Positions 7,999 through 10,464 of a DNA stretch of 21,932 nucleotides are shown here, piece after piece. A program made the translations under genes and the position numbers. The notes under the pieces were generated by a model. The model was not told the origin of the DNA and searched no databases. It saw only the letters and a program-made list of their open reading frames with translations. This stretch comes from Holosporaceae bacterium (lineage in GTDB: Bacteria > Pseudomonadota > Alphaproteobacteria > UBA3830). The stretch's first letter is position 1. Every line of letters starts with the position of its first letter. Location: the NCBI GenBank assembly GCA_031284345.1, contig JAITAC010000115.1, forward strand, positions 1 to 21,932, given 5' to 3'.

Positions 7999-8318
7999 CC
8001 CGCCAACATGATATTGGATCCGCGGGGCGGCGATTGGTATTTTTTAGGACATTTATATCGTAGAAAATTTTCGAAGCCGTGCGTAAGAAATCTCAAGCAC
8101 TGTTCCGTGCGGGCTGGAGACAGCTGCAAATGTTGTACTCCATCTATCACAATTAGTGCAAATATTTTTCAAAAAAAAGAATGTTGACATTTAAAAGACG
8201 TTATATTATTATGCAAATAAATCACTTAACAAAAATAAATTACTTATTTTCGTATGCGAGTTTTTTCGTTTTGTTGGTAATTTTTTGTATCAATATTATA
8301 TTAAATTGGAGAAAAAAC
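7999..8318. other. Intergenic region between the AsmA-like gene and the small exported protein gene
   Basis: A 320-bp spacer. Its first 50 bases are locally GC-rich, with CCAA/TTGG and CCGCC/GGCGG complementarities and a TTTTTT run at about 8040-8045. This could be a weak terminator for the AsmA-like gene. The middle (about 8046-8180) contains short unrelated open frames and nothing I recognise. The last 135 bases hold a near-consensus promoter at 8184-8212 and a roughly 100-base AT-rich leader. Confidence 0.5.
8184..8212 (+). promoter_or_regulatory. Strong sigma-70-type promoter for the 162-residue exported protein
   Basis: TTGACA (8184-8189, perfect -35), a 17-bp spacer, then TATTAT (8207-8212, five of six for -10). 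This is the best promoter match noticed in the window. Transcription would start near 8219 and leave a leader of about 100 bases before the ATG at 8319. It also shows that the in-frame ATG at 8181 cannot be the start, because that codon lies in the promoter. Confidence 0.75.
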
Positions 8319-8807
8319 ATGAGTAAGAAGAACGTTATTTTAGGATTATGTATGGCAATTTTGTCATCCAGTGTGGTTGAAGTAAAATGTATGGACGAGA
8401 ATTATTATAGAGACAACAGCGCTTGGTTATCAGCAGATACCGCTAGCGCAGCAATAAAAGACTCTATTCCATCCAAAGAAATATTAATGCGTATGATTTA
8501 TTCGGCTGTTTATGATGTAGCCTTCGTTCCCGTAATCTATGATGCTGTCAGAATAGGAAATTATGACTTTACAGCAGATGATATCGTGGGAATCATTGAT
8601 ACTTTAGCGATTTATGGGCAAAGCGAAGATAATGGTGATGGAGACAGTGCTGTTATATTAGCAGAGCTATTTTGGCCATATGTTAATGATTTTAATATAC
8701 CCATGGCGCGCTTGTCAGAAGCATTGTCTGATGCCGAATGGAACAACGAATATGGAAGAAATAGAATGATTGATTTCTTGCGGAGTCATGGAGTGCATAA
8801 CATGTAA
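8319..8807 (+). CDS. Unrecognised small exported protein (162 residues)
   Basis: I do not recognise a family. The start is fixed by a GGAG ribosome-binding site with 7-base spacing and by the promoter at 8184. The N-terminus MSKKNVILGLCMAILSSS is signal-peptide-like: two lysines then a hydrophobic core of about 15 residues, with cleavage probably between residues 18 and 25. The cysteine at 24 follows VEVK and is not a lipobox. The mature part is acidic and predicted mostly helical. It may hold two degenerate 39-residue helical units (about 62-100 and 120-158). Each contains V-x-D near its start and closes with a segment of the form I-D-x-L-x-x-x-G, so an ankyrin-like or other helical-repeat protein is possible. 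It precedes the cyclin-box gene on the same strand, separated by 577 bp. A secreted effector or periplasmic protein are both possible. Confidence 0.7.
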   Translation: MSKKNVILGLCMAILSSSVVEVKCMDENYYRDNSAWLSADTASAAIKDSIPSKEILMRMIYSAVYDVAFVPVIYDAVRIGNYDFTADDIVGIIDTLAIYGQSEDNGDGDSAVILAELFWPYVNDFNIPMARLSEALSDAEWNNEYGRNRMIDFLRSHGVHNM

Positions 8808-9384
8808 TAAAGCGCGCTAGTGTAGCGTAAGCTATGCTTGCAAAATAATTATGATTGAAAGAAGCCGAGAAAGAAATTTTGTGTTTAGTCATGCTGGCTT
8901 AGAAGAAGTACGCTGAGTTCAGCATTGCTACGGCACAGAAATCCCATTTCTTCCGTGGAATGGGTATGGTTAACTATCTTTTTCGGTTTATGCTTAGATA
9001 TCCCGCAATATCATAGCTACCTGACGGATTCTGTCATATATGTAGGTCTCCTTTAGTAAGTTTAACTACCTATTTGGGAGATCTTCTTATCTCTTTACAA
9101 GCAAAAATATCATTAAAACGTGCAATCAAATGGCGGTGGTTTATCCATCGATATAGTTTTCCTCTTTTTTTAACATAATATATATACTATTTTTTTTATT
9201 TTTTATAAATAATATTCATTTCTTTATATATTATATTTTCCGTACAGTATTTTTTTAAAATACGGTTTTAAAGCTACCCTGTTGGTAAAAAAAAGACAAA
9301 AAAATTAGCTAAAGTAATAAAACATTAATTATTTGCGTATAGTATAATTATTAAATACATCCAGTTTACAAAAGGAGAGACGCT
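8808..9384. other. Gene-free AT-rich region upstream of the cyclin-box gene
   Basis: A 577-bp stretch without a credible gene. Just after the preceding stop lie two adjacent mini-hairpins, CGCTA-GTG-TAGCG (8815-8827) and AAGC-TAT-GCTT (8829-8839), not followed by a T-run. The middle part (about 8850-9140) has normal composition and several small inverted repeats but only short open frames. From about 9160 to 9350 it is almost pure A and T with long T-runs. This includes a bulged hairpin around 9240-9265 made of CCG and TATTTT against AAAATACGG. The region ends with the promoter and ribosome-binding site of the next gene. It could be the decayed remains of a lost gene or a regulatory upstream region. 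Confidence 0.5.
9343..9348 (+). promoter_or_regulatory. Perfect -10 element upstream of the cyclin-box gene
   Basis: TATAAT matches the -10 consensus exactly and lies 36 bases before the ATG, so transcription would start near 9355. No good -35 is seen 16-18 bp upstream, so the promoter may be weak or activator-dependent. No GG-N10-GC sigma-54 element is visible here. Confidence 0.45.
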
Positions 9385-10464
9385 ATGACAAGGTGCATAT
9401 ATATAATATTTGTCTTGTTGTTTTTTAGTAATGTGTACGCAATGCAGATAGGAGAACATAAAGCTTATCATGCAATGACATTTCAGTATTCCGATATCGT
9501 ACAGTATTGTAAGCCGCTGAAACCCGAGAAATGCGTATTTCTTTCATATGGACAAAACGAACTGAAAAATTCTATTCCTATTTCTATAAATAAGCGTATT
9601 CCCATATCCTATAATTTCTGGAAAGATTTTTCAAGTCAAATAAATCCTAAATTTTTCATATGTTTCTATAAGAGCAACTTGTGGTTTGAAGGCAAAAAAG
9701 CATTGGAGATGTTAGTGAGACCCACAGCGCTATATAATATTTTTATATCACATCCTTCATTTAAGATGCATCCTTCGCCGGCCAACAGTATTTTCATAAA
9801 AGACGAGACGTTGAAGTATTTGCAAGCGGCCATATCTGAGAAATCCTGTCTTATTGTTGAAATGTGGTGGTATTTTATGGCGCCGTGTATATTTAAAGCT
9901 CCGAGGTATTTATTTTTGGAAAAGGACGGAAACATTATTTCATCGTCTGAAAATGGCATTCAAGAATCTTCGATGCTACTGGGCACAGGATTGGAAAAGC
10001 TGCACAACAGTCAATTGTATACGGCAAGTGCGACATTTATCAATGAAATCTTATCTGCCCATAAGCAAGAAACAAATCCCACAATGATTGACAGGATAAA
10101 TAGAACATTTAGAATAATAAAATTTTGCGATGAGTTGTCAGATTCTGATATTATTGTGGCGACGATTCTATTTGATAGATTATATAAGAGAATTCAAGAA
10201 CAGAAGCAAAATGGTCAGAAACTTCTTATTGAAATAAATGGCTTAAACATTAATTTGCTAGTGGTTAGTTGCATAATTCTTGCGAAAAAAATATTATACG
10301 ACGAGCCTAGTGAGAATCTCGGTTATGCGGATATGTTTATCACTTCTTTGGCTAACATTAATCTCCTGGAGAGACAAATCCTGGACACGCTCAATTTCGA
10401 TGTAAATGTTTCTTTGGAATGTTATAAAGAGTACAGGCAAAAGATTTTGGGTGATGCGTCTTAG
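9385..10464 (+). CDS. Predicted secreted protein with a C-terminal eukaryote-type cyclin box (PHO80/cyclin-Y-like)
   Basis: A 359-residue protein. The start has a strong AGGAG (9373-9377) with 7-base spacing. The N-terminus is a textbook signal peptide: MTRC, then hydrophobic IYIIFVLLFF, then SNVYA with likely cleavage after Ala19. Residues about 20-230 match nothing I recognise. Residues about 240-352 read as a cyclin box: SDSDIIVATILFDRLYKR, then LNINLLVVSCIILAKKILYD, then ITSLANINLLERQILDTLNF followed by DVNV. This parallels cyclin-Y and PHO80-family cyclins in order and spacing (ILLASKVWDD, then ELERQFLELLQFNINV). Lys302 and Glu329 align with the conserved Lys and Glu that contact the cyclin-dependent kinase in that fold. 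Cyclins are eukaryotic kinase-activating subunits, so a bacterial copy with an export signal suggests a host-directed effector acquired by transfer. That role is inference. It is convergent with addB. No catalytic motif was seen in the N-terminal part. Confidence 0.72.
   Translation: MTRCIYIIFVLLFFSNVYAMQIGEHKAYHAMTFQYSDIVQYCKPLKPEKCVFLSYGQNELKNSIPISINKRIPISYNFWKDFSSQINPKFFICFYKSNLWFEGKKALEMLVRPTALYNIFISHPSFKMHPSPANSIFIKDETLKYLQAAISEKSCLIVEMWWYFMAPCIFKAPRYLFLEKDGNIISSSENGIQESSMLLGTGLEKLHNSQLYTASATFINEILSAHKQETNPTMIDRINRTFRIIKFCDELSDSDIIVATILFDRLYKRIQEQKQNGQKLLIEINGLNINLLVVSCIILAKKILYDEPSENLGYADMFITSLANINLLERQILDTLNFDVNVSLECYKEYRQKILGDAS

Follow-up and report, generated by a model that had tools for sequence, protein, structure and literature searches.

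How does a bacterium come to encode a cyclin, and what might it do with one that begins with an export leader? The question is raised by a gene on contig JAITAC010000115.1 of a Holosporaceae bacterium (assembly GCA_031284345.1), of which positions 1 to 21,932 of the forward strand were analyzed and are called the window here. The gene occupies positions 9385 to 10464 of the plus strand, stop codon included, and encodes 359 amino acids, which matches a preliminary description of the locus that had proposed a secreted cyclin. To our knowledge, cyclins are generally regarded as eukaryotic, and a literature search of open-licence papers, represented by excerpts, found no report of a bacterium-encoded cyclin among the matches listed. 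We find that the gene almost certainly encodes a real bacterial cyclin, and we consider it rather probable that the product is an effector exported through the Sec pathway, its cyclin box binding a host cyclin-dependent kinase (CDK) of the Pho85/CDK5/PCTAIRE branch. A Shine-Dalgarno-like GGAG, read from the sequence within AAAAGGAGAG, lies at positions 9374 to 9377 (plus strand) with seven bases between its end and the ATG. The database gene call for the same protein (P0002) has 261 residues and starts inside the 359-residue open reading frame (ORF). Two observations favor the full-length start: the Shine-Dalgarno site, and an alignment across the entire length with a relative encoded in a second metagenome-assembled genome (MAG), G002. 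This relative is itself full-length and 45% identical, with a similar leader and the same order of parts.

The cyclin box lies in the C-terminal part of the protein. Pfam family PF08613 matches residues 230 to 340 (positions 10072 to 10404, plus strand) with 30 bits over a cut-off of 21 (E 8.1e-7), and PF00134 matches residues 250 to 341 with 23.3 bits (cut-off 23); the G002 relative scores 24.9 bits with the first family and 22.9 bits, just under the cut-off, with the second. When the single protein is used as the query, phmmer returns cyclin-Y as the best of the PDB sequences (E 0.00098). A profile of the two bacterial boxes, searched against 177,635 PDB sequences, ranks cyclin-Y at the top (E 1.4e-8), followed by PHO80 (E 0.024); the only other match up to E 1, an XK protein (E 0.56), is unrelated. 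Cyclin matches above background were found by both the Pfam and the PDB profile searches, a check that had been set beforehand, and the two PDB cyclins are those of the PHO80/cyclin-Y group to which the box had first been assigned. A wider family profile was built from 120 listed proteins of 701 found; its named members are eukaryotic, mainly cyclin-Y and mostly from animals, and many others are unnamed metagenome proteins. This profile scores the window protein at 38.2 bits and the G002 relative at 47.0, the best of 20,000 shuffles reaching 12.3, and when it is run on 142 window ORFs the cyclin gene is the sole window ORF among its best 12 rows. The control is partly circular because the query profile that collected the 120 proteins already contained the bacterial pair; the Pfam scores of both proteins and the phmmer search of PDB are free of this circularity. 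NCBIfam contains no match for either protein, and one weak PHROGs match in the G002 relative (E 0.021) is not believed.

Two residues of the box, Lys302 (10288 to 10290, plus strand) and Glu329 (10369 to 10371, plus strand), stand at positions that we take to be those by which cyclins contact CDK. Of the 120 listed relatives, 119 have the lysine and all have the glutamate, and both residues are present in the two bacterial proteins. The pair falls opposite the Lys and Glu in the cyclin-Y and PHO80 sequences, as had been anticipated, and Asp306, Asn311, and Asn326 are likewise common to the bacterial protein, cyclin-Y, and PHO80 in the alignment. It could be argued that the cyclin fold acts as a scaffold, inside or outside the bacterium, and that CDK binding has been lost, much as TFIIB has the same fold and another role. 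The conserved contact pair speaks against such a loss, as does the PDB profile, which picks cyclin-Y and PHO80 with no TFIIB among its three matches up to E 1, and we think a scaffold quite unlikely. Judged from the amino acid sequence, membership of the cyclin family is well supported, and the fold is consistent with it.

Structurally, the C-terminal part is predicted to adopt the five-helix cyclin fold that the preliminary description led one to expect, with helices at residues 232 to 248, 253 to 275, 289 to 305, 311 to 317, and 322 to 335. The model of residues 200 to 359, made with cyclins in its input alignment, has a predicted local distance difference test score (pLDDT) of 74.3 and a predicted template modeling score (pTM) of 0.70, and its top Foldseek match is the cyclin-Y of the CDK16:CCNY:14-3-3 complex (probability 1.00, E 0.027). 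In this model the last box helix ends at residue 335 and the protein stops 24 residues later, while most cyclin-Y proteins run tens of residues further. The short end could point to a decoy or inhibitor, with the exported box occupying a host CDK or sequestering its partner so that the kinase is not activated and the pathway is blocked, and the high ratio of nonsynonymous to synonymous divergence (dN/dS) discussed below would fit as well. The Lys/Glu pair and the neighboring invariant residues are nevertheless kept in both species, as expected if docking has been kept, and these docking residues do not separate activation from blocking. A purely blocking role is unlikely in our estimation.

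The protein begins with a predicted Sec signal peptide at residues 1 to 19 (9385 to 9441, plus strand), with cleavage after VYA. As had been described, the N-terminus resembles a signal peptide. Its hydropathy reaches a peak of 3.65 over eight residues, and one Arg, a hydrophobic core, and a VYA-M site can be recognized by eye. A similar hydrophobic stretch is kept in the G002 relative, which has VYT at the cleavage position. Sec export is suggested by this leader, and secretion is a prediction made from the leader by itself. Between the leader and the box lies an N-terminal domain of about 207 residues (residues 20 to 226; 9442 to 10062, plus strand), for which the searches gave no relatives outside the gene pair and in which Cys42, Cys50, and Cys93 are kept in both proteins. 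This domain had been called unrecognized and still is: it has no match in Pfam, none in PDB sequences up to E 1, and none up to E 0.1 in 38 other genomes of the family. A weak thioredoxin match to it (E 1) is not believed.

The gene is bacterial, as it lies on a Holosporaceae-type contig behind a Shine-Dalgarno site. The nearest relatives of the genome's own dnaE are MAGs named 'Holosporaceae bacterium' (8 of 17 loci, 67 to 88% identity), the remaining nine loci belonging to distant groups at 36 to 45% identity, and the alphaproteobacterial assignment made earlier is thereby upheld. The genome sequence, a draft MAG, comprises 1.05 Mb in 137 contigs and is 88.34% complete and 3.21% contaminated, and the cyclin gene is AT-richer than the window (34.6% versus 41.7% GC), both of which could be explained if eukaryotic contamination or an assembly chimera had put a host cyclin gene into a bacterial contig. 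The ORF is intron-free, however, with its Shine-Dalgarno site and a bacterial-type leader, and the second MAG holds a diverged full-length relative on a contig with bacterial-looking genes. Furthermore, the synonymous divergence (dS) of the pair is like that of six other genes, and two other window genes are equally AT-rich, a 208-residue ORF (34.0% GC) and a DUF2948 gene (33.7% GC). We find contamination hardly credible. In G002, the cyclin gene is flanked by two genes whose leader-like products have no Pfam match, and the other ORFs of its contig are of gyrA, ribosomal-protein, and spoT type by eye.

A search of 5.8 billion proteins with the single protein returned two matches, P0002, its own fragment, and P0003, corresponding to the last 248 residues of the G002 protein; the search with the cyclin-domain pair gave no match up to E 1. 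No relative was found among 26 pattern matches in genome_contigs or among 446 in viral_contigs. Among 49 genomes of the order, two contain a PF08613 match over the cut-off, as do 2 of 100 relatives and none of 14 control genomes. In the draws from the class (1 of 385) and the phylum (1 of 398), which overlap, the match is the bacterium's own genome each time, and G002 was evidently outside these draws since no match from it appears there. Within the genus the gene is present in 2 of 11 genomes, and the absences are soft because many of these genomes are incomplete. A third PF08613 match, in G065, scores 15.5 bits, below the cut-off, contains four internal stops, and was set aside as chance.

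The evolution of the gene was followed by comparing the window with G002 using our own Nei-Gojobori script, addB being excluded for a frame error that gave 45 stops. The cyclin gene has a dS of 0.74, similar to that of dnaE (0.71), tyrS (0.74), abh (0.69), dedA (0.69), lolD (0.78), and an outer membrane protein gene (0.84), names that were recognized by eye except for the last. Given this similarity, the gene was probably present in the common ancestor and predates the split of the two species; a recent transfer between them is disfavored by the same values. Its dN/dS is 0.59, versus 0.03 to 0.22 in the six other genes (2.7 to 20 times theirs), with about 0.63 in the N-terminal and 0.56 in the C-terminal domain. 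By this computation the cyclin gene is fast-evolving, as host-facing genes are. The same ratio might mark a former effector decaying under relaxed constraint, a history that the presence in few genomes of the genus, many of them incomplete, and an adjoining dispersed repeat would also suit. Both copies are nonetheless full-length and open at a dS of 0.74, dN/dS is below 1, and the key residues are kept, which leaves decay very improbable.

The surroundings of the gene differ between the two genomes. The dnaE-addB block of G002 is collinear with the window and is then followed by a sensor-kinase-like gene, the cyclin gene being on another contig; judging from this gene order, the cyclin gene has moved in one lineage. 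An AT-rich upstream region (9153 to 9384, plus strand, about 20% GC) is partly conserved with the G002 copy, at 72% over positions 9153 to 9352. In G002 the region is bordered by the cyclin gene on one side and, on the other, by a divergent gene whose product bears a leader. Part of it recurs at 81% on contig C18 of G002, beside a gene that by eye resembles this divergent neighbor. The conserved region and the C18 piece together suggest that the ancestral cyclin gene and such a leader-protein gene were arranged head to head. Further 5' lies the dispersed repeat (9034 to 9129, strand undefined), which has copies on contigs C98 (78% identical) and C44 (shorter, 86% identical) of the same genome and is possibly the remnant of a mobile element.

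The second MAG points to the likely host. G002 is identical to JAITQS010000026 (isolate Roe453_bin108) over the 6,390 bases compared, and this accession falls inside the range JAIRJQ-JAITXW, the deposit of a study on termite guts (passages of PMC11257099). Roe453 is a sample of the lower termite Roisinitermes ebogoensis (passages of PMC11707648), and Holosporales are described in parts of a review as obligately eukaryote-associated, mostly with protists (PMC11909080). Given the source of this sister MAG, the host is presumably a protist of the lower-termite gut.

How such a protein might act can be set out in steps. The predicted Sec leader would take it out of the cytoplasm, and a pilus-type secretin or membrane vesicles could carry it across the outer membrane; a leader fits type VI secretion less well. 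The exported protein would then reach the host cytosol or nucleus, where the cyclin box would dock on a host CDK of the Pho85/CDK5/PCTAIRE branch. If the protein is delivered, CDK binding is suggested by the conserved docking residues, and this branch is the most likely because cyclin-Y partners with CDK14/16 (passages of PMC6170502) and PHO80 with Pho85, according to PDB titles. The N-terminal domain may set targeting or substrate choice, and the docked cyclin would either activate the kinase toward substrates chosen by that domain or displace the host's own cyclin, with an effect on the cell cycle or nutrient signaling of the gut protist. The steps from export through delivery and kinase binding to the effect on the host are ones that we infer, and activation, blocking, and a role apart from CDK would all be compatible with the present data.

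The rest of the genome contains possible companions. A type VI secretion system (T6SS) sheath gene, VipB, and two secretins are found at L028 (contig C110), L029 (C131), and L030 (C63). Both secretins exceed the Pfam cut-off and fall short of all those in NCBIfam. GspD is the best-scoring model for the first, whose neighbors are Tad-like by eye, and MshL for the second, which has pilin-like ORFs next to it. The secretins and the T6SS are possible export routes for this genome, and their tie to the cyclin protein is conjectural. Contig C4 carries tandem kinase-like genes with leader-like starts (L026:523-2292, minus strand, 589 residues; L027:586-2265, minus strand, 559 residues). Their Pkinase scores are 34.5 and 25.4 bits against a cut-off of 31.7, the second thus falling below it, and inspection by eye shows catalytic Asp/Asn and DFG motifs in both proteins. 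Taken with the cyclin, they suggest an exported set of eukaryotic-like signaling proteins. It is in this setting that we propose, tentatively, a fuller picture in which an intracellular bacterium of a termite protist exports its own cyclin with a targeting domain absent from every other protein searched and seizes a kinase of the Pho85/PCTAIRE branch, alongside two exported kinase-like proteins.

Several points weigh against reading the protein as an exported, CDK-binding effector. Without cyclins in the alignment the structural model is poor (pLDDT 37.8) and cyclin matches have E values of at least 0.33, and the better model is not independent support because cyclins were in its alignment. 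The signal peptide was called by hydropathy and by eye, and the relative has Thr at position -1. Sec export alone does not bring a protein inside a host cell, and according to passages of the Holosporales review the most credible route for effectors in this group is the T6SS and not the Sec route (PMC11909080). Fast evolution could also reflect relaxed constraint. Finally, the reading draws on just two sequences, and the intracellular life of the species and the identity of its host are themselves presumed.

Other features of the two genomes can be noted in passing. The 208-residue ORF of the window (8181 to 8807, 34% GC) has a leader-like stretch and a weak DUF3522 match. G002 holds a family of orphan proteins of about 500 residues, mostly with leader-like starts, whose genes lie in tandem beside the cyclin gene and also on another contig by eye (L023:17919-19412, L023:19409-19948, L035:2-979, and L035:1091-2173); the single member scanned has no Pfam match. 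Neither the three leader-like neighbors in G002 nor the 208-residue ORF shows significant similarity to the cyclin protein. At positions 69 to 1133 of the window, an RpoN-like ORF matches the core-binding and DNA-binding domains with the N-terminal activator-interacting domain unmatched, which may be an artefact as the ORF is at the contig edge.

If the protein does act as an exported effector, a symbiont would be supplying a regulatory subunit of a host CDK, which goes beyond modifying or degrading host regulators and is comparable to viral cyclins. Such a bacterially encoded CDK-regulatory subunit would provide a handle on how symbionts match or steer cell division and nutrient sensing in the uncultured protists of termite guts.

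Among known systems, the herpesvirus K-cyclin (1g3n_C) is viral and D-type-like, and a common origin with the bacterial cyclin is unsupported. Cif, in turn, is not known to be a cyclin. It belongs to the cyclomodulins, proteins by which bacteria influence the cell cycle of their hosts (passages of PMC2654923 and PMC7819608), and it is injected by type III secretion and causes CDK inhibitors to accumulate (PMC2654923, in part). Mimicry of the Legionella type and 'Ca. Berkiella' provide examples of eukaryotic domains in host-associated bacteria, and the eukaryotic-like proteins in the passages concerned include no named cyclin domain (PMC7542358, PMC6507137). The PHO80/Pho85 cyclins of yeast are the second-best match of the PDB profile, at 31% identity over the aligned piece, and differ from the present protein in that the latter is bacterial and leader-bearing. 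The best match in both sequence and structure is cyclin-Y/CCNYL1, whose partners are CDK14 and CDK16, with 33% identity over about half of the domain among the matches listed. In the bacterial protein a leader replaces the cyclin-Y N-terminus, the N-terminal domain is an orphan, and less sequence follows the box. Cyclin-Y carries an N-terminal Met-Gly for myristoylation, which is absent here, the window protein starting MTRC and its G002 relative MRKK. For cyclin-Y, CDK association needs phosphorylation and 14-3-3 binding (passages of PMC6170502). What the bacterial protein has in common with cyclin-Y is the Lys/Glu pair and the Asp, Asn, and Tyr that lie between.
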